Assembly: GCA_036001465.1 (NCBI GenBank)
Contig: DASYUH010000109.1
Span: forward strand, 1-64,000
Source: Candidatus Polarisedimenticolia bacterium
Lineage (GTDB): Bacteria > Acidobacteriota > Polarisedimenticolia > Gp22-AA2
Length of the DNA: 64,000 nt
Direction: 5' to 3'
Part shown: piece after piece, positions 1 through 34,199 of the stretch
Position numbering within the stretch: position 1 is the first letter of the stretch
How the letters are laid out: each line of letters starts with the position of its first letter
Program-made: the position numbers and the translations under genes
The notes under the pieces: model-generated
Told to the model about the DNA's origin: nothing
Seen by the model: only the letters and a program-made list of their open reading frames with translations
Databases searched by the model: none

Positions 1-161
1 GCACGGTGCGCGGCATTCTCGAGCAGTTCGGCTGGGAGACCGAAGACATGGGGAAGGCCGAAGCGGCGCGCGCCATCGAGCCGCTCTGCATCCTCTGGTG
101 CATCCCCGGCTTCCTGAGGAACGACTGGACGCACGCCTTCAGGCTGTTGCATCAGGGGTAG
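1..161 (+). CDS. C-terminal fragment of an NAD(P)-binding (F420-reductase-like) oxidoreductase
   Basis: Reading from base 3, the window opens inside a coding frame of 52 residues that ends at TAG 159-161. The visible piece runs through FGWETEDMG, ARAIEPLCILWCIPGF and a final HAFRLLHQG. These motifs are typical of the extreme C-terminus of short NAD(P)-binding proteins related to NADPH:F420 oxidoreductases, which bind dinucleotide through an N-terminal Rossmann fold that lies outside this window. The substrate cannot be inferred from the tail. The gene is on the opposite strand from the methyltransferase and NRPS genes and its link to them is unknown. The family call comes from recognising the C-terminal motifs only. 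Confidence 0.55.
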   Translation, partial: TVRGILEQFGWETEDMGKAEAARAIEPLCILWCIPGFLRNDWTHAFRLLHQG

Positions 162-1740: not shown

Positions 1741-1868
1741 CTAAAATACCGCGAACGCGCCCCCGGGCACAAGACGGGACCACGAGGAGGCCCGCGAGGC
1801 CACGGGACCATCACACTCTCGGCGACGGCGCGGCGCCGATCGGCTAATATTCCTGCCGGGAGGACGTC

Positions 1869-2090
1869 ATGGGCGCCGACGAGAAGGACGAGGACCTGTA
1901 CAGGGTGGTGGTGAACCACGAGGAGCAGTATTCGATCTGGCCGCTGGAGAAGGAGAACGCGCCGGGCTGGCGGGACGCCGGCAAGACCGGGACGAAACCG
2001 GAGTGCCTGGCGTACATCAAGGAAGTGTGGACGGACATGAGGCCGAAGAGTCTGCGCGAGAGGATGGAGCAGGGGAAGGGGCGGGCCTGA
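1869..2090 (+). CDS. mbtH: MbtH-like NRPS accessory protein
   Basis: The product has 73 residues, the normal size for the family. The family signature is visible as [13 protein letters not shown] (about residues 12-24), then APGWRDAG, and [11 protein letters not shown] at the end. MbtH-like proteins bind and stabilise NRPS adenylation domains and are often needed for their activity, so the likely partners are the six A domains encoded next door. The ATG at 1869 has GGGAGGA at 1858-1864. A TAATAT at 1845-1850 could be a -10 element. Unusually, the gene is on the strand opposite to the synthetases, and its last 74 bp are antisense to the end of the second NRPS gene. Confidence 0.93.
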
Positions 2091-14000: not shown

Positions 14001-14475
14001 AGGGACGGCGGGCTTCCTCGGCGGTGCGGCGCGCGACCTCCGCCTCCCGGCGATCCGCGGGCAGCCCGTCCAGATCCACGACGGGCAGGCGCAGCACCAG
14101 GGACGGCGCGACGACCTGGACCGGACCCTCCGCGGCTTCGGCGAACGTCGTCCGCAGGATTTCGTGGCGTCTGACGATCTCGTTCAGGCTGCGCTCGAGA
14201 GCCTCGACGACGAGGCGGCCGCGCAGGCGCAGGGCGCGGGCCATGTGATAGACCGGCGCGCCCGGGCTCAGGCGATCGAGGAACCACTGGCGCTGTTGCG
14301 CGAAGGAGAGCGGCGCCGGCCGGTCCGCTGGCCGCCTGGGGATGGACGCGAGCGCCGTCCGGCGCGCGGACTTCTCCCGCAGCGTCCGCACCAGGGCCGC
14401 CCGTTGCTCGGCGGACAGATCCTTCAGGCGATCTTGCGGCTCAGGAGTTCTCGACATGCTCCGTCCATCGGGCAT
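2017..14475 (-). CDS. Second NRPS: C-T / C-A(Thr)-T / C*-A-T / C-A-T-TE
   Basis: The product has 4152 residues. Approximate domains: C 54-480 (HHIVGDG 186-192); a short linker and T 531-600 (Ser564) with no A domain; C 625-1055 (HHIVSDG 756); A 1085-1600; T (Ser1654); C* 1720-2140, where the catalytic motif reads SEPFFDG (1853-1859) instead of HHxxxDG; A 2175-2665; T (Ser2714); C 2775-3205 (HHIVSDG 2906); A 3235-3745; T (Ser3808); thioesterase 3865-4120 with GWSFG (Ser3938), Asp3965 and His4101. Residues lining the A-domain pockets read DFWNIGMVHK (the known Thr code), DSLNSALVYK (partly like Ala codes) and DSALIAEVWK (not assigned). The first 50 residues include a helical [16 protein letters not shown] that may dock to the partner protein. 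The gene overlaps the stop of the first NRPS; ATG 14457 is an equally good start. The last 25 residues are low-complexity and antisense to mbtH. Confidence 0.95.
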
Positions 14476-20400: not shown

Positions 20401-23400
20401 ACTGCAGGACCCGGTCGTCCGGCCGCAGAGCGTAGCGGCGCGCCATCTCGACGCTGTGGTTGACGAGAGCGCGGTGCGGCACCAGGACGCCCTTCGGTGC
20501 GCCGGTCGAGCCGGAGGTGTAGATCACGTAGGCCAGGTTCTGCGGCGCGGCGGCGCGGACGTCGCCCGCCGCCTCCCCCGGGGCCGCGCCCTCGACCGAC
20601 GCCTCGTCGAGGCACACGACGCGCGTGCCGTCCGCCCGCAGGCGGGCGAGGAGCCGCCGCTGCGTCAGCACCACTCCCGCCCTGGTCTCCTCCAGGATGT
20701 GGGCACACCGGTCCGCCGGGTAGGCGGGGTCGAGGGGCACGTAAGCCCCGCCCGCCTTCAGGACCCCGAGCAGGCCGACGACCATTTCGATGGAGCGCTC
20801 GACGCACAGGACCACCGGCGATTCCGGCCCGACGCCCAGACGGCGCAGGCGCCGGGACAGGGTCGTGGCGCGACGGTCCAGGTCGGCGTAGGTCAGCCGG
20901 TCGGGTCCGAAGCAGACCGCGATCGCCTCCGGCGCGCGCGCCGCCTGGTCCTCGAAGAGCTCGTGGATGCAGCGCTCGTGTGGGAACTCGGCCCGCGGGC
21001 CGCTCCAGTCGACGAGCACCTGCCGGCGCTCCTCCTGCGGAAGAACCGGCAGTCGCGACAGCCGGCCGTCGGGATCGGCGACGACCCCTTCCAGGAGCGT
21101 CTCCAGATGCCGGAGCATCCGGCGCGCGGTCGCGGCGTCGAACAGGTCGGTGCTGTACTCCAGGGCGCACGCCAAGCCCGGACCGCCGTCATCCACCTCG
21201 AGCGTCAGGTCGAACTTGGAGATGCCGTCGTCGATATCCACGAACTCCGCGGTCAGCCCCTCGAGGTCGAGCCGCGACGCCGCGGCGTGCGCCACCATCA
21301 CCTGGAACAGCGCCGTGCGGCTGAGGTCGCGCGGCGGATGCAGATCCTCCACCAGCCTCTCGAACGGCAGGTCCTGGTGCGCGTACGCCGCCAGGGCGAC
21401 GCCACGCACGCGTCTCAGCGCCTCGCGGAAGGTCGGATCGCCCGACAGATCGGACCGCAGGACGAGCGTGTTGACGAAGAAGCCGATCAGGCCCTCGATC
21501 TCCAGGCGGTTGCGGTTGGCGATCGGCGTGCCGACCACGATGTCGTCCTGCCCCGTGTACCGCTGCAACAGGACCTTGAACGCCGCCAGGACCGTCATGA
21601 ACGGGGTGGCCGCCTCCGCGCGGCCCAGGGAGCGCAGCGCCTCCGACAGCCGGTGGGACAGCTCGACCATGTGCCGCGCGCCCCGGTGACTGCGGACGGA
21701 CGCCCGCGGCCGATCGGTCGGCAGATCGAGGGCGGCCGGAGCGCCCGCGAGCGCCCGCCTCCAGTAGGCGAGCTGCGTGTCGAGCGTCTCGCCGCGGAGC
21801 CAGTCGCGCTGCCAGGCCGCGAAATCGGCGTACTGGATCGGCAGGGGCGATAGGGGCGAGGGCCGCCCCTCCACGAACGCCGGGTACAGGGCCTCGAGCT
21901 CCCTGTAGGAGACGCCCTCCGACCAGCCGTCGGTGACGATGTGATGGAACGTGAGGAGAAGGACGTGGTCCCGCGCGTCGAGGCGGAGCAACCGGGCCCG
22001 CGCCAGCGGTCCCCGCGCCAGGTCGAACGGCGCCTGCGCCTCCTCCCGCGCCCTGCGAAGGGCCGCCGGCCAGCGCTCGGGGTCGGGCCGATCCGAGAGG
22101 TCCTCGACGGGCAGCGGCAAACGCAGATCGGGAGTCACGACGGCGAGCGGTTTGCCGTCCACGGCCGGAAACGCGGTCCGCAGCACCTCGTGGCGGCGGA
22201 CGATCTCGTTCAGGCTCTTCTCGAGCGCCCCGGCGTCGAGCGCTCCGCGCAGGCGCAGCGTGCAGGGGGTGTTGTAGAACGGCTTGCCGGGCTCGAGCTG
22301 ATCCAGAAACCACAGCCGCCGCTGAGCGAAGGAGAGCGGGCGCTCCCGATCCGGAGGGACGGACCGGGGGGCCGACTCCGGGCGTCTCCCTTCGCGGCGC
22401 GCCGCGGCGACACGCTCGGCCAGGCCCGCCACAGTCGGCGCCTCGAACAGGGCGCGCAGAGGCAGCTCGACCCCGAACAGGTCGCGCACCCGGGAGATCA
22501 CCTGGGTCGCCACGAGCGAATGTCCTCCCAGATCGAAGAAGCCGTCCTGGACGCCGACCCGATCCAGGCCGAGGAGCCGCGACCAGAGCTCGGCGAGTCG
22601 CCTCTCGTCCTCGCCGCGCGGGGCGACGAAGGGCACGGCCAGATCCGGCCTTCCCGCGCCAGGCGCCGGCAGTCGCCGCCGGTCGACCTTGCCGCTGGAT
22701 GTCCGCGGGAGTTCGTCGAGGAAGACGAACGCCGACGGCACCATGTGGTCGGGGAGCCACTCCTTCAGATGGTCGCGCAGGAGGCCGACGGGGAGAGGCG
22801 GCGTCTTGACGCCGTCCTCCTTCCGCAGCGTCATGTACGCCGCCAGGATGGCGTCTCCCCGCGAATCGGGACGCGCGACGACGACGCTCTCGCGGACCGC
22901 CGGATGCCGGTTCAGGAGCGTCTCGATCTCCCCCGGCTCGATCCGGTAGCCGCGCACCTTCACCTGCTCGTCCATTCGTCCGAGGAACTCCAGGCTCCCG
23001 TCTGGAAGCCACCGCGCCCGGTCGCCGGTCGCGTACAGGCGCGCGCCCGGCTCGCCGGAGAACGGATCCGGCAGGAAGCGGCCGGCCGTCAGGTCCGGGC
23101 GGCCCAGGTAGCCGTGCGCCAGCCCGGCGCCCGCGACGCACAGCTCGCCCGCGGCTCCGACCGGCAGCGGCTGCAGTCGCCGGTCCAGGACGTAGGCGCG
23201 GACGTTGTCGATCGGCCGCCCGATCGGGACCGTCCGGCCGCCACGCTCGCAGATCCAGAAAGTGCTGTCGATGCACGCCTCGGTCGGCCCGTACAGGTTG
23301 ACGAGCTCCGCGCCCAGACGTTCGAAGCAGCGCTCCACGAGATCGGGCCTCAGCGCCTCGCCGCCGCAGAAGACGCGGCGCAGGGAGCGGCATCCTTCGA

Positions 23401-24331
23401 GACCCGGCTGGTCGAGGAGCGCCCGCAGCCCCGACGGCACCATCTGCAGGACCGTGGCCTTCTCCCGGGCGATCAGCCGGACCAGAGAGGCCGGGTCCCG
23501 GTGGGCGCCCGGTCCCGCCAGGATCAGACGGGCTCCGGCGAGGAGCGGCGCGAAGAACTCCCAGACCGCCGCGTCGAAGGTGAACGGTGTCTTCTGTACG
23601 ACGCCGTCGGCCGCGTCCAGCGGAAAGCGTCGGCTCATCCAGAGCATGTGATTGCGGATCGCCGCGTGCGGGACGAGCACGCCCTTCGGCTTCCCCGTCG
23701 AGCCGGAGGTATAGATGGCGTAGGCGACGGCGGAGCGATCCACCGCGACGTCGAGGTTCGCGTCGCTCTGCCGTTCGGTATCGGCGTCGGGCCGATCCAC
23801 TGTAAGGACCTGCCCGTGGAAAGCGGGGAGCCTGTCGCGAAGGCGCTCCTGCGACAGAACCACACCAGCGCCTGCCTCACCGATCATGAAGGCGAGACGG
23901 TCCCTCGGCCACGCCGGATCGAGCGGCAGCCAGGCCGCGCCCGCCTTGAGCGCGCCCAGGATGGCGGTCACCAGCCCGGGCGCGCGATCCATGAAGATCG
24001 GCACGAGCCCGTCGGCCGGGACGCCCAGCCGTCGGAGCCGCCGCGCCAGCCGGTTGGCGCGCGCGTTCAGGTCGCCATAGGTCAGGCGCCGGTCCTCAAA
24101 GACCACCGCCACCGCGTCGGGGCAGCGCTCGACCCGCGCCTCGAAGAGCTCGTGCACGCACCCCGCAGCTCCGAACTCCGCGCCGGTGGTGTTCCATTCC
24201 ACGATCACCCGCCGGCGCTCGACTTCCGTCAGCGCCGGAACGCCGGCCGCGGGAGGCAGGTCAGGGACAGGAGGATCCCAGGAGGCTGCGGGGGGGCGAT
24301 GAGGCGAGGTGTCGGAAGAAGATGCCTTCAA
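14441..24331 (-). CDS. First NRPS: A(Gln-type)-T / C-A-T-E / C-A-T
   Basis: The product has 3296 residues and starts the assembly line. Approximate domains: A 60-555, T (Ser605), C 663-1090 (HHIVTDG 796-802), A 1120-1630, T (Ser1686, LGGDSI type), epimerisation 1725-2180 (HHLVVDG 1859-1865, VGWFTTIKP near 2015), C 2197-2620 with YPLTPMQEGMLYH and HHVLLDG (2333-2339) as expected after a D-residue, A 2655-3160, and T (Ser3215). Pocket residues read by alignment to GrsA give DAWQFGLIDK for A1, which I recall as a Gln code, DVENVGAVTK for A2 and DLWNNGLMFK for A3. The last two have no match I can recall. There is no starter C domain, yet residues 34-53 (LTEVERRRVIVEWNTTGAEF) match a C-to-A linker. 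The start is TTG with GGAGGG at 24341-24346. Residue 2 of the predicted peptide should be D. Confidence 0.95.
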   Translation of the reverse strand: MKASSSDTSPHRPPAASWDPPVPDLPPAAGVPALTEVERRRVIVEWNTTGAEFGAAGCVHELFEARVERCPDAVAVVFEDRRLTYGDLNARANRLARRLRRLGVPADGLVPIFMDRAPGLVTAILGALKAGAAWLPLDPAWPRDRLAFMIGEAGAGVVLSQERLRDRLPAFHGQVLTVDRPDADTERQSDANLDVAVDRSAVAYAIYTSGSTGKPKGVLVPHAAIRNHMLWMSRRFPLDAADGVVQKTPFTFDAAVWEFFAPLLAGARLILAGPGAHRDPASLVRLIAREKATVLQMVPSGLRALLDQPGLEGCRSLRRVFCGGEALRPDLVERCFERLGAELVNLYGPTEACIDSTFWICERGGRTVPIGRPIDNVRAYVLDRRLQPLPVGAAGELCVAGAGLAHGYLGRPDLTAGRFLPDPFSGEPGARLYATGDRARWLPDGSLEFLGRMDEQVKVRGYRIEPGEIETLLNRHPAVRESVVVARPDSRGDAILAAYMTLRKEDGVKTPPLPVGLLRDHLKEWLPDHMVPSAFVFLDELPRTSSGKVDRRRLPAPGAGRPDLAVPFVAPRGEDERRLAELWSRLLGLDRVGVQDGFFDLGGHSLVATQVISRVRDLFGVELPLRALFEAPTVAGLAERVAAARREGRRPESAPRSVPPDRERPLSFAQRRLWFLDQLEPGKPFYNTPCTLRLRGALDAGALEKSLNEIVRRHEVLRTAFPAVDGKPLAVVTPDLRLPLPVEDLSDRPDPERWPAALRRAREEAQAPFDLARGPLARARLLRLDARDHVLLLTFHHIVTDGWSEGVSYRELEALYPAFVEGRPSPLSPLPIQYADFAAWQRDWLRGETLDTQLAYWRRALAGAPAALDLPTDRPRASVRSHRGARHMVELSHRLSEALRSLGRAEAATPFMTVLAAFKVLLQRYTGQDDIVVGTPIANRNRLEIEGLIGFFVNTLVLRSDLSGDPTFREALRRVRGVALAAYAHQDLPFERLVEDLHPPRDLSRTALFQVMVAHAAASRLDLEGLTAEFVDIDDGISKFDLTLEVDDGGPGLACALEYSTDLFDAATARRMLRHLETLLEGVVADPDGRLSRLPVLPQEERRQVLVDWSGPRAEFPHERCIHELFEDQAARAPEAIAVCFGPDRLTYADLDRRATTLSRRLRRLGVGPESPVVLCVERSIEMVVGLLGVLKAGGAYVPLDPAYPADRCAHILEETRAGVVLTQRRLLARLRADGTRVVCLDEASVEGAAPGEAAGDVRAAAPQNLAYVIYTSGSTGAPKGVLVPHRALVNHSVEMARRYALRPDDRVLQFASLNFDVAAEEIFPTLLRGATLVLRPDPVFVSVPEFHRFLENEGVTVVNLPSSYWHAWVAELGRDERPLPACLRCVVIGSEKTFSDRLAAWNEITDVRPALFNAYGPTEATVTTTVYEAPGGPASGAARLVPIGRPIANVRVYVLDGHLNPVPVGVPGDLHVGGEGVARGYVGRPDLTAERFVPDPFTGAPGARLYRTGDRVRWLLDGNLEFLGRLDDQVKVRGYRIEPGEIERALERHPAVEESVVAAREDAPGETRLVAYTVGRPGAGPPPSAPDLRAYLKERLPEHMLPSAFVALERLPRTPSGKIDRKALPAPDAGRRDLEGGRAEPRTPAEHTLARIWSQVFGRESVGIHDNFFDLGGDSILSIQIVARANQAGLRLTSKQIFQHQTVAELAAVADARVAASAEQGAVTGEAPTTPIQRWFFEHDFADPHHFNQAVLLEARQALDEAKLERALGVLLAHHDALRMRYREVGSEWRQIGAAPGGPVPFRRIDLSALPAGERIAALEAKAAELQRSLDLAEGPLVRAALFDLGSDLPARLLVVIHHLVVDGVSWRILLEDLNTVYRQLERGDTIDLPAKTTSYRLWAERLAEHARTAPADPEIDFWLAEARRRVGRIPVDHPGEENLEETARVATSVFTEEETRALLQDVPAACRTEINDVLLTALAQAVTGWTGERSALIDLEGHGREEVLDDVDLSRTVGWFTTIKPVLLTLEEVPGPEEALKSIKEQLRAMPARGIGYGLLRYLRGDREIARRLAALPQAEISFNYLGQFDATVPASAPFRFASESTGPVVSPRGRRTHLLEIGGYVASGRLRLSWKYSEALHARATIEALARRFERALRSLIALGSRPGAAAYTPSDFPLAPLDQATLDRLARDHARIEDVYPLTPMQEGMLYHTLSAPGSGVYVEHLSWRFHGPLDEEAFERAWRRAIERHPILRTAFVWSGVEKPLQVVQRSLRLSWERRDWRGLEPEEQERELKGFLDDDMRRGYDLSRPPQQRLAIMRLADDVHRFVWSHHHVLLDGWSLPVLLKEVASLYEAFRRGEAPALDEPVPFRDYVAWLLRQDLAAAEAYWKRALAGLGSPTPLVVDRPAGGPAQPDDYRLERIRLPRAVVARLQGLARRQQLTLNTVLQGAWAILLGRYSGQSDVLFGGVVSGRPADLRGAETMVGLMLNTLPVRARLREREPVVSWLKGLQEEQVEMRQYEYTPLTLTQKWSGLAHGTPLFESVFAFENYPLDAKLLERFGDLEVRDLRAVEWTHYPLNVVVPPGPELSIQINYDARRFQAPVIRRMLGHLRTILEGIAADPQRRLADVPMLAASERSWLKERNPGLAAPSGRCLHELFEAQAARRPEAIAVVCDGEAVTYGELNRTANRLARRLRERGAGAETRVAVCLERSIEMIEAILAILKAGAAYVPLDPAYPNDRLSFMLQDAGVVALVARQGILDRLPAHAGGVVLLEAEGATPPAAPAGRSGAAPACADDANPPPEADPDSPAYVIYTSGSTGRPKGVVVTHANATSLFAAAAARLSLDERDVWTLFHSSAFDLSVWEMWGALAHGGRLVIVPYLVSRSPEEFLDLLRRERVTVLNQTPSGFRSLMRVEEEGAGGLSLRLANFGGEALNPDDLKPWVARHPDRPLLFNLYGPTETTMFVTWRRLRPEDMQGRPRSPIGRPIESARVHLLDAAMRPVPVGVPGEICIGGAGLARGYLGRPDLTAERFVPDPFGGTSGGRLYRSGDLARWREDGDLDYLGRLDDQVKIRGFRIEPGEIESALLAHPTVREAVVVARQDGPEQRRLVAYVVPRNAEDAAPAALRAFLKASLPDYMVPSVFVALQALPVTPNGKVDRGALPAPESAASDSESARVPPRTLIEQDLARLWGGLLGVDSPGVEDNFFEAGGQSLLATLLVSRVRAHLGAEVSLKDFLDDPTIRGLARKVEEAYLRTAGPSELDAVLGLMDGARGETRATPGPPDARWTEHVENS

Positions 24332-24460
24332 CGGGGACGACCCTCCGGCGATGAGTGTCGATCCTGCCGAAACGCCCTCTATTCCTTGATGGCCGCAAGA
24401 TACCCGACGTCTCAGCGAGAGTCAAACCAAGCTTCTCCATCCTCACTGCGGGGCGGGACT

Positions 24461-25660
24461 TCAAGTTCCCGTGGCGGCATCGAGGAGGGAGTCGATGTCG
24501 TCGCGGGTGTTGTAGATGTGCGGCGAGACGCGGATGAGGTTGTCCCGCAGGCTGACCAGCACGCCGCGGTCCCGCAGCCGGCGGTAGAGGGCACGCGTCT
24601 CCTCGGGGCACGGACCCTCCAGTGCCAGGATCCCCGACCGGCGCTCGGGGGTCAGGTCCGACGCGACCCGCAGCCGGGTCCTCTCGAGGTCCCGGATCAA
24701 AAGGTCTTGCAGACGCCTTGCGTGCACCTCCACGGCCCCGACACCGACGCGGGTCAGAAACGAGAGCGATGCGATGAAGCCGGCCAGGTTCAGGAACGAC
24801 GCCGCCTCGGGCACGTCGAAGCGGCGGGCCCCGTCGCGGAAGCGGAGCGGGTAGCCGTCGATCTCGTTGAGGTTGCTCGATCCTTCGACGTTCATCCAGT
24901 TCACGTCCGCGACCCTGAGCCGGTCGAGGATCGCGGGATTGACGTAGGTGAAGCCCGTCCCGAAAGGGGCGAGAAGCCACTTGTCACCGCTCGTCGCCAG
25001 GATGTCGATCGGCAGGTCCGACACCTTGAAGTCCACTGCGCCCACGGACTGGGCGCCGTCCACCACCAGGAAGATGCCGCGCTCGCGGCAGGTCTCGCCC
25101 AGTATCTTCAAATCGGCGCGGTATCCCGAGGAGAAGGCGACGTGACTGATGCTGACGACTCTCGTGTTCCGTCCGATGGCCGCGATCAGGTCCCGCTCCC
25201 CGACGAAGCGACCGGACGCCGGGCGGACCTCGCGAACGGCGATGCCGTCCAGCGCGCGATTGAGCCAGGGGTAGACGTTGGCGGGGAACTCTCCGTGCGC
25301 CAGGACCACCTCGTCGCCCTCCTTCAGGGGAAGGCAGCGGGCCGCGAGATTCAGACCGTGCGAGGCGCCCGTGGCCAGGGCGATGCTCTCCGGGTCGCAG
25401 CCGATGAGACGCGCCACCACCTCGCGCGCCCGCCCCGGCAGGGACTCATAGAGGGAGCCGGCGATCTCCTCCGGGTGCTCCTTCAGCCTCAGGGCGCCCC
25501 GCACCGCGGCCGCGGTCTCGGCCGGGAAGGGCCCCTGCGCGGCGCAGTCCAGGTAGACCTTGCCGCCGAAATCGGAGAAATGTCGCTTCCAGGGCGTCGC
25601 GTCGTCCGGCAACGTGATTCTTCCCGCGCGCGGTATTTCAGGAGAGCCGGAATCATACAT
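24461..25660 (-). CDS. PLP-dependent class V aminotransferase (isopenicillin-N-epimerase/SufS-like)
   Basis: The product has 399 residues from the ATG at 25660, the normal length for fold-type I class V enzymes. Key features are VYLDCAAQGPFP near the N-terminus, ALATGASHGLN, the cofactor-binding Asp in VVDGAQSVGA (about residue 201) and the Schiff-base lysine in SGDKWLLAPFGTGF (about Lys227). The C-terminal GVLVSLRDNLIRVSPHIYN is typical of the isopenicillin-N-epimerase/cysteine-desulfurase-like branch. The frame is open further upstream, but that extension overlaps the cupin gene, so the internal ATG was preferred. The gene lies 38 bp after the cupin gene and 129 bp before the first NRPS, suggesting it modifies or supplies an amino-acid precursor; the reaction cannot be read from sequence. 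Confidence 0.85.
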   Translation of the reverse strand: MYDSGSPEIPRAGRITLPDDATPWKRHFSDFGGKVYLDCAAQGPFPAETAAAVRGALRLKEHPEEIAGSLYESLPGRAREVVARLIGCDPESIALATGASHGLNLAARCLPLKEGDEVVLAHGEFPANVYPWLNRALDGIAVREVRPASGRFVGERDLIAAIGRNTRVVSISHVAFSSGYRADLKILGETCRERGIFLVVDGAQSVGAVDFKVSDLPIDILATSGDKWLLAPFGTGFTYVNPAILDRLRVADVNWMNVEGSSNLNEIDGYPLRFRDGARRFDVPEAASFLNLAGFIASLSFLTRVGVGAVEVHARRLQDLLIRDLERTRLRVASDLTPERRSGILALEGPCPEETRALYRRLRDRGVLVSLRDNLIRVSPHIYNTRDDIDSLLDAATGT

Positions 25661-25698
25661 CGTCCGGCCCGCGGCGCGAAGACGGCGCCACGCCGGCC

Positions 25699-26559
25699 TC
25701 AATGCCGAAGCGCCGGCACGAGACGGCGGATCCTCTCGCCCCATTCCAGGAGGAGATGCCGGGGCGGACCCCAGAGTGTGCCCGGGGTGTTCCACCAGAA
25801 GTTGAGGGAGATCGAGGGCTCGAGGGCGCGCAGGTAGTGCCACCATGCGGCCGGGATGAACAGGATCTCCCCCGGACGCACGACGAGCTCCCGGAGCGAG
25901 GCCCGCAGGAACCTTGGATGCCGGACGGGATCGGGCCGCTCCGCCTCGACCGGGCTGAAGTGCAGGTTCGGCCCGAACGCCGCACAGGGGTAGTACACGA
26001 GGTCGGACTCCTCCGGCGGCACCAGGAGCACCTTCTTCGTCCCGAAGATCTGCACGAACAGGTTGTGCGTCGAGTCGAAGTGGAGGGTCGTCACAGCGCC
26101 CGCCGGACCGATCCAGAGCGACGGCTCGAGCCTCATCCGCCGCGCCAGCGCCCGCGGAACATAGGCCGGCACGGCCATGTATTCGTCCGGCTCGCGGATG
26201 TCGTCGCGCAGGCGCGGGACGGCCCGCAAGAGCGGGTACTGCGCCAGATAGTGGCTGCGCGATTCCGGTCCGCCGGCCCGCACGAGTTCGAGGAAATCGC
26301 CGAGACGCATCGGCCTGCGCCGGACGCTCCGCAGGTAGTCGGCCGGATCGTTGCGCGTCTCCTCGCGCTCCCAGACCTCGACCCGGACCTCCGTGTCCGG
26401 CAGGATCGCCTTGAGATGGCCGGGGTCCCAGCGCGCGATCGCCGGCCAGACTTCGGCGACCCCGGTGAGGATCGCCGGCCGCCGGCGCGACACGAACTCC
26501 CGGAAGAAAGCTCGCGGCGCGGGCCGGTGGATCCGCGGAACGGCGCTTCCCTGGGGCAT
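25699..26559 (-). CDS. Cupin-8/JmjC-type Fe(II)/2-oxoglutarate oxygenase
   Basis: The product has 286 residues. The iron facial triad of the cupin_8/JmjC fold is visible as HFD (His160, Asp162, within TTLHFDSTHNLFVQ) and His241 (IPAAWWHYL). KKVLLVPP follows the first pair, and SISLNFWW closes the barrel. Family members hydroxylate proteins or amino acids using 2-oxoglutarate and oxygen, so beta-hydroxylation of a free or carrier-bound amino acid for the neighbouring NRPS is plausible but not shown. This is the first gene of the presumed biosynthetic operon. A TATAAT at 26569-26574 leaves only about 3 nt of leader before the ATG, so the message may be leaderless. Confidence 0.85.
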   Translation of the reverse strand: MPQGSAVPRIHRPAPRAFFREFVSRRRPAILTGVAEVWPAIARWDPGHLKAILPDTEVRVEVWEREETRNDPADYLRSVRRRPMRLGDFLELVRAGGPESRSHYLAQYPLLRAVPRLRDDIREPDEYMAVPAYVPRALARRMRLEPSLWIGPAGAVTTLHFDSTHNLFVQIFGTKKVLLVPPEESDLVYYPCAAFGPNLHFSPVEAERPDPVRHPRFLRASLRELVVRPGEILFIPAAWWHYLRALEPSISLNFWWNTPGTLWGPPRHLLLEWGERIRRLVPALRH

Positions 26560-26568
26560 GAAGCCGGG

Positions 26569-26574
26569 ATTATA
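26569..26574 (-). promoter_or_regulatory. -10 element (TATAAT) for the NRPS operon, possibly leaderless
   Basis: On the minus strand a perfect TATAAT sits 9 nt before the ATG of the cupin oxygenase at 26559, which would place transcription start at or just before the start codon. I see no convincing -35 hexamer 16-18 nt upstream and no Shine-Dalgarno sequence. A leaderless start is therefore likely but not proven. Confidence 0.45.
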
Positions 26575-26623
26575 AGCCCGCTGCCCTATCTCCCGTTCAT
26601 TTCCCCCACCCGACGTCGACTCC

Positions 26624-26762
26624 GGGGTTGGCGGTGTCGTGCCGCTCCCGGGAACGAGCAGTTTCTGTCACCCCGAGGAGAACGTCGCGGCTATCAACAT
26701 CGATCTGAGCGCGGCGGATCTCGAAGACATCGAGCGGGCATGGCCGCGGGGCGCGTCAGCAG
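26624..26762 (+). pseudogene. 3' remnant of an aldo/keto reductase
   Basis: The frame reads VVPLPGTSSFCHPEENVAA, then INIDLSAADLEDIERAWPRG and ASAEQDR. This is the typical end of an aldo/keto reductase: the VPxPGTxxxxxxEENV cofactor-binding segment followed by the last helix. Only about 45 residues remain. There is no start, the sequence before it does not look like the rest of the enzyme, and the frame runs on without a stop into the tmRNA-like fragment at 26774. I read it as a piece of a reductase gene cut by recombination. The fragment is short, so chance resemblance is not fully excluded. Confidence 0.5.
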
Positions 26763-26773
26763 AGCAGGATAGG

Positions 26774-26825
26774 TGGTGGAGGCGGCGGGGGTCGAACCCG
26801 CGTCTGAATCATCTCTGCTGGACTA
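26774..26825 (-). ncRNA. Isolated 3'-end fragment of tmRNA (ssrA), likely att-site scar
   Basis: The minus strand ends with a T-arm (stem GCGGG/CCCGC around loop TTCGACC), the acceptor strand CGCCTCC and an encoded A-CCA, preceded by GATGATTCAGAC. This is the standard 3' end of tmRNA. The antisense reading VEAAGVEPASE is a familiar artefact of tmRNA ends. A whole tmRNA of about 350 nt cannot be present, because the stop codon of the ABC-3/HEAT gene lies at 26826-26828 and coding sequence continues beyond it. The 3' end of ssrA is a common integration target, so this looks like the copy left by an integrated element. Where the similarity ends inside 26800-26825 cannot be judged by eye. Confidence 0.65.
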
Positions 26826-28328
26826 TCACTCTCCGTGCCGCTGGCGCTTCCCGTCGCCAGACAAGGTGCGATCGAGCTTCTGGAGGAACGCCTGCCCCTC
26901 GGGAGAGTCGGGGTCGGAGGTGGGCGGGTCGGTCATCTTCGCCAGCCGGGCAAGGGTGCCAATGGCCTCGAGGCGGGTCACCTTGGCGTCGGCCTGGCGC
27001 GCCAGGTCGAAGAGGACCGGGATGGCGCCGGCGTCCCCGAGGCCGGCGACCGCCTGCGCGATCCGCAGCCGCACCCACTCGTCCTCATCCTTGTTCCTCA
27101 AGCCCTGAAGCAGCGCCGGCAGCGCGGAGCGATTCCCGAGACGGCCCAGGGCGGATGCGGCCTGTTCGCGCACGGCGGGGGACTGATCGTGCAGCGCTTC
27201 GATCATGTCGGGAAGAATGCGCGGGTCGGCGCTCGAGGCGATCTGTCTCACGGCGGCGACCCGCACGTTCTCGTGGGTGTCCTTGAGCGCCCGGCGCAAG
27301 GCGTCCATGCTGCCGCCGACCTCGTGCTCGGGCGCTGTGGAGCCTCCCGGGCCGGGCGATTCGGCGCCCGGGTCGAGGGATCCGGCGCCCACCCCCGCAT
27401 CGGCGACCTCCTCGCCATGCGCCCCGGTGCCGGGCCGGAAGTGAACCAGGAGCCAGCCGGCTCCGATCGCCAGCGCCAGGCTGGCGGTGGCGACCGCGAG
27501 GGCGCGCGGGCGGCTGGGGGCGTGGCTGATCGCCCGGATCGTGCCTCCCAGCGCCAGGGCGATGGCGAAGCCGACCATGATCGTCGGCCCGGAGGGACGG
27601 TCGTACGAGAAGAACAGGCCGACGGCGCTGACGATCGTCGCCATGGTCCAGCCGGTGATCAGACGCGCCTTCAGGCCGTCGAAGAACATCACGGCGAAGA
27701 CGGCGGGGGCGACCAGGTAGCAGAACACCAGGAGGACGCCCGCGATCTGCACCGACGACGTGATCACCACGCCGAACGACAGATAGAAGAAGAAGTCCCA
27801 CAGACGCACCCGGATGCCGCGGGCGAAGGCCGCCTCGGGGTCCAGGGAGATCAGCAGGAATCTCTTGCGACACACCATGTGGAATAGGCCGATCAGGGAA
27901 TAGAGCACCGCCGTCTTGATGATCTGATGGGGCGTCACCCAGACGATGCTCCCGGCCAGGAGATCGTGCAGGTGCTCGGCGCCGTGCGGCGAGATGTCGG
28001 CCAGGAGAATGGCGGCCGCCGAGGCGGTGGCGTACGTCAGGCCGATCACCGCCTCCTGCGGGACCCGCTCGTGCCGGGCGCGGGTCAGGGCGAAGATGAT
28101 CGCCGCCAGGATCGCGAAGCCGAGCGAGATGTAGTACGCGCCCTCGGAGCGCGGGTCGTGGCCCAGAAGGAAGGCCACGGTCGCTCCGAGGGCGGCGATC
28201 TGCGCCAGGGCGATGTCCACGAAGATCACCTTGCGGCTGATCACGTGGATGCCGAGATAGACGTGGATCCCGGTCAGGATCAGGCAGGCCAGGAAAGGAA
28301 GGAACAGGACCTGGAGCTGCTGCGCCAC
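26826..28328 (-). CDS. ABC-3 (ZnuB/TroC-type) metal permease fused to HEAT repeats
   Basis: The product has 500 residues. About residues 1-290 form an ABC-3 family permease with eight or so membrane helices (LACLILTGIHVYLGIHVI, VFVDIALAQIAALGA, VLLVFCYLVAPAVFAVMFF). After a final helix and a Pro/Gly-rich linker, residues about 340-470 contain four HEAT-like repeats (for example DTHENVRVAAVRQIA, DQSPAVREQAASALGRLG). Ordinary ZnuB proteins are 260-300 residues, so the extra domain is unusual; it should lie on one face of the membrane and bind a protein partner. It starts 4 bp after the stop of the ZnuA-like gene. No ZnuC-type ATPase is adjacent. The transported ion is probably Zn or Mn, by family. 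Confidence 0.85.
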   Translation of the reverse strand: MAQQLQVLFLPFLACLILTGIHVYLGIHVISRKVIFVDIALAQIAALGATVAFLLGHDPRSEGAYYISLGFAILAAIIFALTRARHERVPQEAVIGLTYATASAAAILLADISPHGAEHLHDLLAGSIVWVTPHQIIKTAVLYSLIGLFHMVCRKRFLLISLDPEAAFARGIRVRLWDFFFYLSFGVVITSSVQIAGVLLVFCYLVAPAVFAVMFFDGLKARLITGWTMATIVSAVGLFFSYDRPSGPTIMVGFAIALALGGTIRAISHAPSRPRALAVATASLALAIGAGWLLVHFRPGTGAHGEEVADAGVGAGSLDPGAESPGPGGSTAPEHEVGGSMDALRRALKDTHENVRVAAVRQIASSADPRILPDMIEALHDQSPAVREQAASALGRLGNRSALPALLQGLRNKDEDEWVRLRIAQAVAGLGDAGAIPVLFDLARQADAKVTRLEAIGTLARLAKMTDPPTSDPDSPEGQAFLQKLDRTLSGDGKRQRHGE

Positions 28329-28332
28329 CGGT

Positions 28333-29406
28333 TTACCTCCCCGCGGCCGCCTGGCCGCCGCTCAGAGCCCGCACGATCTGATCGGTGGCGTAGTCGAACA
28401 GCCGGAAAAAGTCGGTCGCCTCGGGGGCGCCGCCGACCTCGATCGGCAGCGTGAGGATCTTGACCTTGGTCCTCTCCGCCAGATAGTCGGTGGAGCGGTG
28501 CTCGACGTACGGGCGCGTCAGGATCACCGAGACGTCCCCCTGCTTGAGACGCGTCAGGAGCTCCTCCAGGTGCTTGGCGGACGGGGAAATCCCCGGTTTC
28601 GGCTCGACGAAATCGATGACGCGGATGCCGAAGCGCTCGGCGAAGTACGAGTAATCCTTGTGGTAGGTCACGACCGCCTTCCCCTTCACCGCCTGCATCT
28701 TGCCCAGCCAGCCGCCCAGGTGCGCGCGCAGGGGGGAGCCCCCGACCGAGGTGCCGTCCAGGAAGACGTCGAGCGTCCCGGCGAACGCCTCGCGCGACAG
28801 CTTGGCGCCGCCGGCCAGGTCCACCAGGTCCTTGCCGAAGAGCGCCTCGTGGAGACGGCGGACGAAGGCGCGGCGCCCGTCCTCATAGGCCTGCGCCCCC
28901 GCGGGATCGAACCGCTTCAACGCCTCGGCGATAGTCCCGGCGACGATCTCGGCGTTGAGGGGATCGGTCAGGTAGTGCGGGTTGCCGTAAGGGTGCACGT
29001 CCCCCTCGGTGCGGCTGAGGCTCAGGGGAACCTCGACCACCCGGATGCCGGTGGAGCAGTCGATGTAGCCCGCCCCACCGGGCATGAGGCGCGCGGTGCG
29101 CGCTCCCTGGGTCAGGGGCGGGACCCAGCCGATCTCCAGGTCGAGGCCGTTCACCAGGAGCAGGTCGGCCTTGCGCAACTTGACGATGTAGGACGGCTTC
29201 GGATCGACGAAGTGGGCGTCCTGCGAGCCGCTGGCGATCACGGTCAGGTCGATTCTGTCGCCGGCGATGGCGGAGGCGATCGATCCGAAGTTCGGGAGCG
29301 CCGACACCACCTTGACGTGCCCTTCGGCGGCGCTCGCGGGGTCGGAAAGCAGCAGGGCTGGAACGGCCCAAAGCAGCGGCAGCACAGCGCGGGAATGGAG
29401 TCTCAT
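28333..29406 (-). CDS. Periplasmic metal-binding protein of ABC transporter (ZnuA/TroA family)
   Basis: From the ATG at 29406 the product has 357 residues with a signal peptide (RAVLPLLWAVPALLLSDPASA). Cluster A-I features are visible: a metal-ligand His in SQDAHFVDPKPS, a second in GNPHYLTDPLNA, and a third in VVTYHKDYSYFAERFG, followed by VEPKPGISPSAKHL. The His-rich loop of some ZnuA proteins is absent. The start was chosen because GAGGA lies 5-6 nt upstream, formed by the TGA stop of the porin gene. An earlier in-frame start would lie inside that gene. It should deliver Zn or Mn to the fused permease immediately downstream. Confidence 0.9.
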   Translation of the reverse strand: MRLHSRAVLPLLWAVPALLLSDPASAAEGHVKVVSALPNFGSIASAIAGDRIDLTVIASGSQDAHFVDPKPSYIVKLRKADLLLVNGLDLEIGWVPPLTQGARTARLMPGGAGYIDCSTGIRVVEVPLSLSRTEGDVHPYGNPHYLTDPLNAEIVAGTIAEALKRFDPAGAQAYEDGRRAFVRRLHEALFGKDLVDLAGGAKLSREAFAGTLDVFLDGTSVGGSPLRAHLGGWLGKMQAVKGKAVVTYHKDYSYFAERFGIRVIDFVEPKPGISPSAKHLEELLTRLKQGDVSVILTRPYVEHRSTDYLAERTKVKILTLPIEVGGAPEATDFFRLFDYATDQIVRALSGGQAAAGR

Positions 29407-29414
29407 GGCGTTCC

Positions 29415-30812
29415 TCAGTATTTGTGGGCGCCGTGAGCGCCGATGACCGGGATCCACTGGAAGAAGAGCTGGCTGTCGTCTCGTTCGCCGTCGAACCGCA
29501 GCGCCGCGTCGTCGTTGCGGCTCGTCCGCTTGTACTGCAGCCGGATCTCCTGGAACTCCGACGGCAGGAACCGGACGATCCCCGAGATCGCCCGCTCGCG
29601 CGCCCGGTCATCGTCGGGAAAGCCGGACCAGTCGTAGCGCGTCCCCACGCGCCAGCGCTTGGCGAACTGCCATTCGACATGGCTGTAACCTCCGGAGGCC
29701 TCGATCACCTGAGCGTCGAGGAAGGGGGTCGTGAGAGGGTCCATGAGGACGTCCAGGTGGCGGCGGCTCTCGAGCGCCTCCGTCTGCCACAGGAAGGATT
29801 TGTAGACGTTCATCCGGACCGGCTTCCATTTGTACGTCAGGTCGACGCCGTTGACCGCCGACTGGAGCTCGCCCCGCGGCCCGAGGCCGGCGCAGCCGCC
29901 GCCGCAGTCGTCGATCGCCTGAAGCAGCGCCTCGGACGCCCCGGCCCGGCCGCGCGCCGCCGTCAGGCCGAGCTCCAGCGTGCTGTTCGGTCCGGTGTTG
30001 AAGAACCACGCGAGGTGCTCGAGGAACGTCAGGTTGCGACGGTCGTTGTTGAAGGAGGTCCCTTCGAGTGCCGAGCCGACCTCGGTGAACAGGTCGATGT
30101 ACTGGTCCCACGGGTTCGGGATCAGGACGCTCAGGGAGAGCCCGTCGGTCGCGAGGCTCTCCTCTCCGAAGAAGTTGACCAGCGCGTTCGGCCGGTCGAC
30201 CGAGAAGAACGCGTGCGTGTGCAGGCCGTTCCATTTCCCGAAGGCGTTCTTGAAGCGGCCCCCCTTGAGCTGCAGCGGCCCCGGGAGGGCCAGCGTGCTG
30301 ATGAACCCCTCTTCGACCTCGGGGGTCTCGCCGGACGGGAAGGACAGGAAGAGGTCGACCCGCGTGAACGGATCGACGGCCGACTGGAGCGCGATCTCCG
30401 CCTCGCTCATGTCGAACCCGTTCGCGTCGCTCTCGCGCTTGAGTGACGTCGTCCCGGACGCGAGAAGAATGGCGCTCATCGCCGGGTTGAGCAGGCTCTG
30501 CACGCGCGTCGGCGCGTTGCCGCCGGCGCCGGGGAGGGCGGGGGTTGGCTGCGCCGGCGCGGGAGGCACCGGCTGCGCCTCTGCCGATGGCGCCAGGGCC
30601 GGCGGTACCGGGGCCGATGGCGCAGCAGCGGGCCCCTGATCCGGAAGGATCCCGGCCCGCAGCTGGTCGCGCAAGGTCTGGATCTGCCTCTTCAACTCAT
30701 CGATCTCACGCCTCAGCTCCGCCACGTCCTCGGCCGTGGGCGGGGCCGGCTCGGCATGAAGCGCCGGCCCGAGCAAGATCATCACCGCCAGAATGGACAC
30801 TCTGGATCTCAT
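29415..30812 (-). CDS. Outer-membrane beta-barrel porin with N-terminal coiled coil
   Basis: The product has 465 residues. A signal peptide (MRSRVSILAVMILLGPALHA) is followed by a heptad-like coiled coil (VAELRREIDELKRQIQTL), a long Pro/Ala linker (about residues 55-100), and then alternating barrel-type strands to the C-terminus, which ends in an aromatic residue. The order of coiled coil, linker and barrel resembles OprP/OprO-like and S-layer-tethered porins. It sits between a small secreted Cys protein and the metal-binding protein and probably carries the metal across the outer membrane. Specificity cannot be read from the sequence. Confidence 0.75.
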   Translation of the reverse strand: MRSRVSILAVMILLGPALHAEPAPPTAEDVAELRREIDELKRQIQTLRDQLRAGILPDQGPAAAPSAPVPPALAPSAEAQPVPPAPAQPTPALPGAGGNAPTRVQSLLNPAMSAILLASGTTSLKRESDANGFDMSEAEIALQSAVDPFTRVDLFLSFPSGETPEVEEGFISTLALPGPLQLKGGRFKNAFGKWNGLHTHAFFSVDRPNALVNFFGEESLATDGLSLSVLIPNPWDQYIDLFTEVGSALEGTSFNNDRRNLTFLEHLAWFFNTGPNSTLELGLTAARGRAGASEALLQAIDDCGGGCAGLGPRGELQSAVNGVDLTYKWKPVRMNVYKSFLWQTEALESRRHLDVLMDPLTTPFLDAQVIEASGGYSHVEWQFAKRWRVGTRYDWSGFPDDDRARERAISGIVRFLPSEFQEIRLQYKRTSRNDDAALRFDGERDDSQLFFQWIPVIGAHGAHKY

Positions 30813-30916
30813 GGATCCTCCGACAATTCAAGGTCACGGAACGCCCGTGCGGTCTGCCCATCCAGCCGGGGCCTGTGGTGCCGGATCAGGGAAGGGAAGA
30901 CCGCGCCGCCAGCGAA

Positions 30917-31204
30917 TCAGACACCTGGACTTCCCGGCGGGGCACGGAGCGGACGGAGATAGGGAGCGGAGCTTCGGAGCGATCCGGACGTTGACAGGAC
31001 GGCGATCCGGGAGGGCTCGATCACCGGGGACGTGAGGTCCCCGGACATCTGGGCCACCCCCGGGGAATTGAGGGCCTTGCAGGTGGAGCAGTCGCGCTGC
31101 GGCCCGCTGTGCGGGGCCGCGGCGTGCAGCATCGACAGGGCGAGGAGCGCCAGGAGGACTGCCGCGCACCACCGGGTCCAGCCGAGCCGCATCGTTGGCC
31201 GCAT
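30917..31204 (-). CDS. Small secreted protein with CxxC motif
   Basis: The product has 95 residues from the ATG at 31204 (the preceding codon, GTG 31207, is an alternative). A signal or anchor segment (CAAVLLALLALSMLHAAA) is followed by RDCSTCKALNSPG and a Ser/Pro-rich tail. AGGGAA lies 7-8 nt before the ATG. The arrangement of a secretion signal then a short segment with CxxC is seen in small proteins found with metal and copper transport genes, but I cannot assign a named family with confidence. It is the first gene behind the promoter at 31232-31260 and precedes the porin by 104 bp. A metal-binding role is inference. Confidence 0.55.
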   Translation of the reverse strand: MRPTMRLGWTRWCAAVLLALLALSMLHAAAPHSGPQRDCSTCKALNSPGVAQMSGDLTSPVIEPSRIAVLSTSGSLRSSAPYLRPLRAPPGSPGV

Positions 31205-31231
31205 CACGGTTCCCTATTCAGCGGGGTTGAA

Positions 31232-31260
31232 ATCGTACCCGACGCCGGGGCAGGTGTCAA
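31232..31260 (-). promoter_or_regulatory. Sigma-70-type promoter for the porin/znuA/permease operon
   Basis: The minus strand carries TTGACA (31255-31260), a 17-nt spacer and TACGAT (31232-31237), ending 28 nt before the ATG at 31204. This is a perfect -35 with a good -10 at ideal spacing. It lies after the stop of the FecE-like ATPase gene, so the metal-import genes can be transcribed separately. I do not see a clear Zur or Fur operator over it. Confidence 0.65.
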
Positions 31261-31300
31261 AGAGCCCGACGAGATCCTCACCCGCCTCCCGTCCACGGCC

Positions 31301-32116
31301 TCAGCCGAGCGGGGCGATCGGGACCACGTACGGCGCTCCCGTCGCGGCGTCGCGCTCGACCCGGGCGTCGGTCTCGTACACCTCGCGGATCCGCGCCGCG
31401 GTGAGGACCGAGGCCGGCGGGCCGTCCGCGGCCACCCGGCCCTTGTGCAAGAGGACCAGGCGCGAGCCGTGGCGCGCGGCCAGGTTGAGATCGTGGCTGG
31501 TCGCGACGACGGTCAGTCCCCGATCGCGATTCAGCCGGGTCAGGATGGCGTAGATCTGCAGGCGATGCTTCAGGTCGAGGAAGGCGGTCGGCTCGTCCAT
31601 CAGAACGATGCGCGGCTCCTGAGCCAGGGCGCGCGCGATCAGGGCCCTTTGCCTTTCTCCGCTGCTCAGCTCGTGGAGGTGCCGGTCCTCCTGGCCGGCG
31701 AGGTCCATCTCGGCAAGAGCGGCGCGGGCCGCGGCGAAGTCCTCCGGGCGCTCCATCCCGAAGCGCCCCAGGCGCGGGGCGCGCCCCATGAGCGCGATTT
31801 CGAGGACGCTGAAATTGAACAGGACGCGGGCCTCCTGGAAGACGACGGCGACCTGACGGGCGCGCTCGGAGGGGGCGATGGCCCTTATCGGCCGGCCGGC
31901 GAGCCGCACCTCGCCGCCGGCGGGCTCGACGACGCCCGCCAGAAGGTGCAGGAGCGTGGTCTTCCCCGAGCCATTCGGGCCGATCATCCCGAGGAATTCG
32001 CCCGGCGCCACGGCCAGCGACAGGTCCTCGAACAGCGCGGCCGCCGCGCCGTGATGGCGGAAGCGGACGCCGTGGACGGAGAGGATCGGGACGACCGTTC
32101 CCCGCGGGTCACTCAA
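31301..32116 (-). CDS. ABC transporter ATPase, FecE/BtuD/HmuV type
   Basis: The product has 271 residues. It contains Walker A GPNGSGKTT (about residues 46-54), the Q-loop VVFQEARVLF, the signature LSSGERQRALIARAL, Walker B RIVLMDEPTAFLDLK and the switch His in VATSHDLNLAARH. The LKHRLQIY stretch after Walker B is characteristic of ATPases that partner FecCD-type permeases for siderophores, haem or cobalamin. Its start overlaps the FecCD permease stop by 8 bp, so the two are coupled. No binding protein of the matching class is nearby. It might also energise the ABC-3 permease downstream, which lacks its own ATPase; this is speculative. Confidence 0.9.
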   Translation of the reverse strand: MSDPRGTVVPILSVHGVRFRHHGAAAALFEDLSLAVAPGEFLGMIGPNGSGKTTLLHLLAGVVEPAGGEVRLAGRPIRAIAPSERARQVAVVFQEARVLFNFSVLEIALMGRAPRLGRFGMERPEDFAAARAALAEMDLAGQEDRHLHELSSGERQRALIARALAQEPRIVLMDEPTAFLDLKHRLQIYAILTRLNRDRGLTVVATSHDLNLAARHGSRLVLLHKGRVAADGPPASVLTAARIREVYETDARVERDAATGAPYVVPIAPLG

Positions 32117-33125
32117 AGTAGCCCCCTCCGCCCTGGCGGCGATAGAGCCACAGGAAAAATGGCCCGCCGCACAGCGCCGTGATGACGCCGACCGGGATCT
32201 CGGTGGGGGCCATCACCGTGCGGGCCGCCGTGTCGGCCGCCATCAGGAAGATGGCGCCGGTCAGGGCGGAGGCCGGAACGAGCAGCCGGTGATCCGGCCC
32301 GAAGACCAGGCGGGCGGCGTGCGGCACCATCAGCCCGACGAAGCCGATCGGCCCGGCGACCGAGACGACCGCAGCGGTGACCAGCGACGCGAGGAGGACG
32401 GTCACGAGGCGCGTCCGCTCGACGGTCACGCCGAGCGACCGTGCGGCGTCCTCGCCGGCGGATAACAGGTTGAGATCGCGTCCGGTGAGCGACAGGCAGG
32501 CGATTCCCGCGACCATGAGGACCGACAGGCCGGCGATGAGTCCGTACCCCTCGATCGGGATGCTGCCGATCATCCACAGCCTGACCCCGTGCAGGCGGGT
32601 GAAATCGACCACCGTCTCGATGAGGAGAATGACCGCCAGGTAGACGGTGTTCATGATGACGCCAATCAAAAGCATCGGATAGGAGAGGAGCCGGCCTCCC
32701 GCGCTCGACAGAAGAAACAGGGACCCGACCGTGGCGGAGGCCCCGAGGAACGCCGCCGCCTCGCGCACCGGCAGGGCCGGCGCGAGCGCCTGCAGGCCGA
32801 CCGCGGTGGCCAGGAAGGCGCCGAGCGCCGCCCCCCCCGAGACCCCGAGGATGTACGGATCGGCGAGGGGATTGCGCAGGACCGCCTGGAACACGGCCCC
32901 CGAGGCGCCGAGCGCCGCGCCGGCGAGGGCCGCCATCAGGATGCGCGGCATCCGGATGCGCAGGATGGTCGCCGCCGCCGTGTCGATGTCGGGGGCCTGA
33001 CGGAAGAGCTCCAGCAGGGTGTGATGGCTGCTCCCGATGCTGGCGCAGACCGCCACGCAGACGGCGAAGCCGGCCGAGAGCAGGCCGATGGAGACCCAGA
33101 GACGCCGGGAAGTCAGCGGCGGCAT
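32109..33125 (-). CDS. FecCD-family ABC transporter permease
   Basis: The product has 338 residues, the usual length, with about ten membrane helices. FecCD/BtuC hallmarks are RMPRILMAALAGAALGASGAVFQAVLRNPLADPYILGVSGGAALGA in the first third (given here only as key blocks RMPR, GAALGASGAVFQ and NPLADP) and GPIGFVGLMVPHAARL with GPDHR near the end. Such permeases import ferric siderophores, haem or vitamin B12. It is followed directly by the ATPase. The upstream kinase gene stops 9 bp away on its other side, at 33135, and is read into this one, so all may share transcripts. Confidence 0.92.
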   Translation of the reverse strand: MPPLTSRRLWVSIGLLSAGFAVCVAVCASIGSSHHTLLELFRQAPDIDTAAATILRIRMPRILMAALAGAALGASGAVFQAVLRNPLADPYILGVSGGAALGAFLATAVGLQALAPALPVREAAAFLGASATVGSLFLLSSAGGRLLSYPMLLIGVIMNTVYLAVILLIETVVDFTRLHGVRLWMIGSIPIEGYGLIAGLSVLMVAGIACLSLTGRDLNLLSAGEDAARSLGVTVERTRLVTVLLASLVTAAVVSVAGPIGFVGLMVPHAARLVFGPDHRLLVPASALTGAIFLMAADTAARTVMAPTEIPVGVITALCGGPFFLWLYRRQGGGGYFE

Positions 33126-33134
33126 GGGGCCAGT

Positions 33135-34199
33135 TTAGCCTACCCGTTCGAACGACAGGACGTAGCGGTCGAGGGCCGGCATGAAGAGGTCGTAGCGCCG
33201 GCCGGCGAACAGCGTGCGCCTGATGAACCGGAGGGTGCGCGGCACGTAGTCGAGGTATTCGGGACGGCCGCGGACGGTGGCCATGTACCCGAAGGTGCCG
33301 AGGTCCTTGAGGTTCCGCTGCAGGGCCATCAGGTCGAAGTCGCGCCGGAACTCGTCGTCCGGTATGTCGAGTCTCATGCAGAGACGGTCGATCATCTCAT
33401 CGATGAGACGTTCCTCGAGATCGAGAGACGAATCGCGCAGGAGAGATGCCGCGTCGTAGGTGTACGGCCCCATCCGCGCGTCCTGAAAGTCGACGAGACC
33501 GAGACGGCCTCGCCGCACCAGGAGATTTCGCGACTGAAAGTCGCGGTGGCAGTAAACGCGCGGCAACTCGTCGCACCGAAGGGCCAGGTCGGAATAAAAG
33601 GCCCGCAGGACCGCCTCGTCCCCCTCCGGTGGGGCCAATTTCCTGAGCCCCTTGATGAAATGTCGGTGGAAGTGGTCGAGCTCGAACAGGAAGCGGTCGC
33701 AATCGAGGGCGGAGGAGGCGGCGAAGTCATCCGGACGGAGGGCTGCCTCCCCCTTCTTGTGAAAAAGAACAATCAGGTCGCATGCCTGCCTGTAGAGCGG
33801 CAAGGCCGGCCGCCAGCCACGCGCCCGCCCGACACCCGGCCCCGCGCCACTCTTGCGTCGCCCGCCCGGACGCTTGCCGAGCAGATGGGCTTGAAGGGTC
33901 GCGTCCCCGAGGTCCTCGACCAGGACGAGACCGGCTTCCGGATCGGACGCCAGGATGCGTGGGACAGGCGCCCCGATCGATTTCAGGACCCGGTGGTTGC
34001 TGAACAGGGGTGAGCCAGGGATGAGCGGTTCCGGATGAACCATCAGGACGGCCGTCTTTCGTCCGCGGGTGACGCGATAAAACCTTCTGGTCGAAGCGTC
34101 TCCGGCGATCTCCGCGATCCTGAAGCCGGATCCGACCGATCGCTCGAGGAGTGCCGTGACTGGGGGGGTGATCAGACTCCCCTTGGGGAGCCGGCTCAC
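33135..34199 (-). CDS. AmgK-like sugar kinase (aminoglycoside phosphotransferase fold)
   Basis: The product has 354 residues from a GTG that overlaps the TGA of the nucleotidyltransferase gene (GTGA), implying translational coupling. Kinase features are the Brenner motif CHRDFQSRNLLV with catalytic Asp and Asn, GLVDFQDARMGPYTYD with the metal-binding Asp, and an N-terminal GDASTRRFYRV that fits the AmgK glycine-rich region. Together with a MurU-like partner this matches the AmgK-MurU route, in which N-acetylmuramate and N-acetylglucosamine are phosphorylated at the anomeric carbon and converted to UDP-sugars. A basic linker KRPGGRRKSGAGPGVGRARG interrupts the N-lobe. Substrate assignment rests on family and pairing. 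Confidence 0.8.
   Translation of the reverse strand: MSRLPKGSLITPPVTALLERSVGSGFRIAEIAGDASTRRFYRVTRGRKTAVLMVHPEPLIPGSPLFSNHRVLKSIGAPVPRILASDPEAGLVLVEDLGDATLQAHLLGKRPGGRRKSGAGPGVGRARGWRPALPLYRQACDLIVLFHKKGEAALRPDDFAASSALDCDRFLFELDHFHRHFIKGLRKLAPPEGDEAVLRAFYSDLALRCDELPRVYCHRDFQSRNLLVRRGRLGLVDFQDARMGPYTYDAASLLRDSSLDLEERLIDEMIDRLCMRLDIPDDEFRRDFDLMALQRNLKDLGTFGYMATVRGRPEYLDYVPRTLRFIRRTLFAGRRYDLFMPALDRYVLSFERVG

Follow-up and report, generated by a model that had tools for sequence, protein, structure and literature searches.

We read positions 26774-26811 (minus strand) of the window, the 64,000-nt stretch of a Candidatus Polarisedimenticolia bacterium genome analysed here, as probably an attachment-site relic of integrative elements for which, in this lineage, the 3' end of ssrA, the tmRNA gene, is the target. 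It sits in the joint between a metal-transport operon and an unrelated, relocated block of peptide-antibiotic-type (NRPS) genes. Two synteny breaks, this ssrA scar and the stub of a reductase gene all fall within 283 bp (26545 to 26829), such that the transporter block to the right of 26829 is common to four relatives (G002, G006, G009 and G018) and the NRPS block to the left of 26545 is common to two congeners (G001 and G004), where it lies elsewhere. Because the two blocks share synteny with different relatives at different loci, the joint is, by these comparisons, a meeting of two separately inherited blocks with the scar and the stub between them. The recombination border put forward in the original prediction is thus borne out: synteny with four relatives breaks off there from the right, and synteny with the two congeners from the left.

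The end of the tmRNA gene is a common landing site of mobile DNA islands, and scars of this kind are well known. The copy in the window, recovered by own-genome BLAST and by Rfam, comprises the T-arm, the acceptor strand and CCA. Its strong core (26774-26804, minus strand) matches the 3' end of the genome's own intact ssrA at 30 of 31 bases, CCA included, with weaker likeness up to 26811 (92% over the 38 bp of 26774-26811, E 4e-9 in own-genome BLAST), and a 28-nt core, GCGGGTTCGA..CCA, differs from the own ssrA by a single mismatch (27/28). Read on the minus strand from 26811 to 26774, the scar terminates in GACGCGGGTTCGACCCCCGCCGCCTCCACCA, and the intact ssrA terminates in GACGCGGGTTCGACTCCCGCCGCCTCCACCA; this intact gene (C32:246777-247123, 347 nt, tag ANSPLALAA) lies on a different contig from the scar's, which is C109. 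The Rfam tmRNA model also matches the scar (26.2 bits, E ~2e-8); the score stays under the gathering threshold of 47, as is expected of a fragment lacking most of the gene. An extension of this match to 26858 was discarded as overreach, as the bases from 26826 upward are the conserved C-terminus and stop codon of the neighboring permease (conserved in G002). ARAGORN detected no functional tmRNA gene in the window, which holds only the last 31-38 nt of one, without a complete tRNA-like domain or tag-coding part, and the permease stop codon at 26826-26828 leaves no space for the ~310 nt that are missing. Both the comparison with the intact ssrA and the covariance model therefore agree with what had been claimed from the letters alone, namely a minus-strand tmRNA T-arm, acceptor strand and CCA from 26774 upward with no space for the remainder.

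Copies of the ssrA 3' end recur across this genome, with 11 in total including that of the window, by our own count from the listed matches and depending on the cut-off for decayed copies. Four of them lie downstream of ssrA in tandem and in the same orientation (C32:217107, 211032, 206026 and 205962), and the others are found at C48:7924, 14746 and 27262, at C84:50828, and at C114:20717 and 17147. Five copies (C32:211032 and 206026; C48:14746 and 27262; C114:17147) share a flank of 70-180 bp just upstream of the core, also present in relatives (e.g., G006 and G001), as would be expected of an arm of one element family. A Phage_integrase gene (PF00589, a tyrosine recombinase) at C32:217261 directly adjoins the copy at C32:217107, and C32 has the layout of a tandem ssrA island array, with copies below ssrA (246777) in the same orientation and an integrase at an element end. 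Relatives carry similar arrays of ssrA 3' copies beside ssrA, and tandem accretion of islands at ssrA is a feature of this genome. The weaker Rfam tmRNA matches that were checked proved to be ordinary tRNA genes, and we rejected the idea of dispersed repeats with an independent function, as the ssrA end is all that the other copies have in common, apart from the element flank in five.

Several side observations accompany these copies. The scar at C48:27262 directly abuts a second NRPS gene of the genome (C48:27235-30899; L073 7235-10899), with an AMP-binding/FkbM-type methyltransferase/PCP/thioesterase arrangement, followed by an acyl-CoA dehydrogenase gene. At ~180 bases downstream of the C32:217107 scar, Rfam gave a weak group II intron match on the other strand (44.3 bits against a gathering score of 49; L006 1126-1323). 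Reading frames also run antisense through the scar of the window (26639-27286 and 26773-27108, plus strand), and likewise in L074, L073 and L230; tails read from ssrA 3' copies in this way include WWRRRGSNPR, VEAAGVEPAS and RRRRESNPRL, as well as GVEPAS and RRGSNPR, and such short frames are probably antisense tDNA fragments that are easily misannotated as protein.

Tandem accretion of islands at ssrA has been described for the ssrA genomic islands of Dehalococcoides (PMC3146451, PMC2764846), where every repeat is found within 100 kb on the downstream side of ssrA and a serine recombinase serves as integrase, whereas here some copies, that of the window included, are on other contigs and the scar-adjoining integrase is a tyrosine recombinase (PF00589). 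Islander documents island accretion at tRNA and tmRNA genes in general, and reportedly has the tmRNA gene as the most enriched target (PMC4383910). An island end in Islander, as in the window, is recognised by a displaced 3' piece of the target gene (PMC4383910), and the window shows two marks of a tDNA (ssrA) island boundary, a displaced 3' fragment of the genome's own ssrA and a synteny break at that fragment. Unlike those islands, the window has one fragment, without target gene or integrase on the readable stretch, such that a complete island is not callable.

The scar of the window differs from the other copies in carrying its own base change, CCCCC for CTCCC, and in sharing no flank with any of them. 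Misassembly of the draft genome at the repeated core would suit a draft of 114 contigs with many near-identical cores, but we regard it as highly improbable, a chimeric assembly being unlikely given this private base change, the lack of a flank common to other copies and a shared core of only ~30 bases. Improbable too is a second full ssrA gene that once stood here and decayed to its last bases. It would account for the few weakly ssrA-like bases beyond the core on the transporter side, and decayed ends of ~90-100 bp do exist at C48:7924 and in G001 and G007, but just ~14 bases separate the ssrA likeness from the permease stop codon and the bases past the core match weakly. The scar consists of the core without the shared element arm, plus those few ssrA-like bases on the transporter side. 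We take it for a probable attachment-site relic and not for the border of an element of the common family that integrated recently.

On the right of the joint, the transporter block (26829..34117, minus strand; blastn and Pfam) is conserved with relatives. It begins with an intact metal ABC transporter permease with HEAT repeats (26826..28328; PF00950, PF13646), whose conserved end lies at the joint, and includes a ZnuA-like protein (28333-29457), an ABC ATPase (31301-32116) and a FecCD permease (32109-33125), all on the minus strand and assigned with Pfam. The permease has 69-88% protein identity in relatives (88% in G002; 69-73% in G006, G009 and G018), and the operon matches G002 at 88% DNA identity and also matches G006, G018 and G009. 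These DNA matches start at 26829 in G002, 26870 in G006, 26894 in G018 and 26953 in G009 (blastn), and the DNA past the permease differs in each of the four, none of which has an ssrA scar beside it. The junction of the window is thereby absent from relatives in which the permease occurs but the NRPS block does not. The original prediction had named this comparison and the covariance-model search as able to refute it, and it withstands both. Separately, the C-terminal HEAT-repeat extension of the permease, an unusual domain fusion, is conserved in all four.

On the left, the NRPS block (935..26545, minus strand) has 75-76% DNA identity to G001 (C28:83886-110038) and G004 (C329), with matches ending at 26545 and 26501, respectively. 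Pfam places here, all on the minus strand, a methyltransferase (895-1740), two NRPS genes (2017-14475 and 14441-24331), a class V aminotransferase (24461-25846) and, as the first gene of the NRPS operon, a cupin-like protein (25699-26559). This gene starts at 26559, 215 bp from the scar, close to the ~200 bp originally stated. Sequence comparison identified a TATAAT box just upstream of it (26569..26574, minus strand), and G001 and G004 have it too, which suggests that the block has retained its likely promoter. The box lies roughly 9-13 bases ahead of the cupin ATG in the three species, a spacing that would suit a leaderless NRPS-operon transcript. Strong matches to the first gene of the block occur in two of 40 other genomes of the class, both congeners, a count to be read with the relatives being draft genomes, some of them incomplete (G002 75%), in which gene absence is weak evidence. 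No integrase is present in the window; the contig starts at window base 1, with the far end of the NRPS side off it, and the only integrase on contig C109 lies at 102497, 76 kb away on the other side of the scar. Likewise, there is no second ssrA 3' copy on this contig, which starts in or just past the NRPS block.

Between the blocks, directly against the scar, lies an aldo/keto reductase remnant (26621..26772, plus strand) whose frame encodes SGVGGVVPLPGTSSFCHPEENVAAINIDLSAADLEDIERAWPRGASAEQD.. and continues into the scar. Its likeness is confined to the C-terminus of AKR13B2/PRK10376-type aldo/keto reductases (PDB 8hnq, AKR13B2, E 6e-4; NF007695 positions 254-284 of 290, E 0.0035), such that the C-terminal ~50 codons are retained and ~250 residues are absent ahead of them, in keeping with the truncated 3' end originally described. 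No second copy of the stub was found elsewhere in the genome, and the best matches to it in the phylum are ~50% identical. The reductase was rejected as a native neighbor of ssrA, as no likeness to the stub was found within 1.5 kb of ssrA in those ssrA loci of relatives that were fetched. G003, G004 and G006 have a different reductase, 46-51% identical to the stub across 35 residues, at a distance of ~2-3 kb from ssrA scars, so that a link between reductase cargo and ssrA islands is no more than suggestive. A reductase gene sits in a block of 1.0-1.4 kb with ~90% identity and varied surroundings in G003, G004, G005 and G006 (L231 5556-6986, L232 5312-6749, L238 346-1776 and L230 9171-10177), and three of these four genomes have an ssrA scar no more than ~2-3 kb away from it. 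A reductase-like end at window positions 1-160 led nowhere, and neither did a 27-bp stretch at the left edge of the window that matches C48.

Comparing the NRPS cluster between congeners revealed that G001 and G004 share with each other a flank unlike that of the window. The outer parts of the G001 locus have their syntenic counterparts on contig C10 of the genome analysed here; beside the same tRNA-Leu(CAA) gene, ~33 kb of different DNA stands there instead of the NRPS block (C10:29353-62894; L209-L211); the G002 flank has no clear counterpart in this genome. In G004, a 53-bp stretch resembling the 3' half of tRNA-Leu(CAA) (L187 18301-18353, minus strand; 77%, E 3e-5, by BLAST alone) lies directly upstream of the cupin gene, the same place as the ssrA scar in the window, and in the direction expected of a displaced fragment, with no Rfam match at this decayed piece. 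G001 has an intact tRNA-Leu past the other end of the cluster, and no ssrA-type scar lies beside the NRPS block in G001 or G004. Tentatively, the NRPS cluster could be cargo moving between tDNA attachment sites in one acidobacterial genus, with an ssrA-type scar here and the tRNA-Leu(CAA) locus in two congeners. Rather unlikely, in our estimate, is that the scar is an old passenger, left by an earlier, unrelated ssrA-type island, and that illegitimate or homologous recombination at a variable spot added the NRPS block afterwards. The abundance of scars in the genome (11 counted) and the different DNA just past the permease in every relative looked at would fit such a history, with the reductase stub reflecting further trimming between scar and NRPS block, but it would take two events at one place to put the scar, the stub and both synteny breaks in 283 bp, and the scar is there in none of the four relatives.

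For the reading that we prefer, an attachment-site relic at the joint, a site-specific recombinase would cross over near the ssrA T-arm, and each integration would leave an ssrA 3'-end copy at the island edge. The NRPS block would have reached the side of the transporter operon along with such an island or part of an island array, and subsequent loss would have spared only the scar and the reductase stub. That the NRPS block took this island route, instead of arriving through a separate rearrangement there, is our inference. Delivery by an island is plausible because matches to the first gene are confined to those two congeners among the 40 genomes, because the block sits elsewhere in both, because the tRNA-Leu fragment of G004 adjoins the cupin gene, and because the scar at C48:27262 abuts the second NRPS gene. 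In favor of the relic reading we counted the match to the own ssrA, the ten further copies, the integrase at C32:217107, the arrays in relatives, the two synteny breaks in 283 bp, the scar-free permease flank in four relatives, the different locus of the NRPS block in G001 and G004 and the second NRPS gene abutting the C48:27262 scar; against it we counted the window without an integrase and the contig without a second ssrA copy, the scar without a shared arm, the ssrA on another contig, and the G001 and G004 NRPS blocks without an ssrA-type scar. Of the original proposal that the biosynthetic locus, or an older island, arrived or was trimmed here, the border and the ssrA attachment-type scar are supported. 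Delivery of the NRPS block by an ssrA-specific element is no more than plausible, as no second copy or integrase is visible up to window base 1, where the contig begins, and the scar, of a kind common in this genome, could be an older passenger.

The mechanism is of a known kind, and the change of place of the cluster is more interesting than the scar itself. To our knowledge, the mobility of large NRPS clusters in uncultured Acidobacteriota is little documented, and a cluster that occupies different places in different congeners, its edge marked by tDNA fragments, offers a concrete, testable route of spread.
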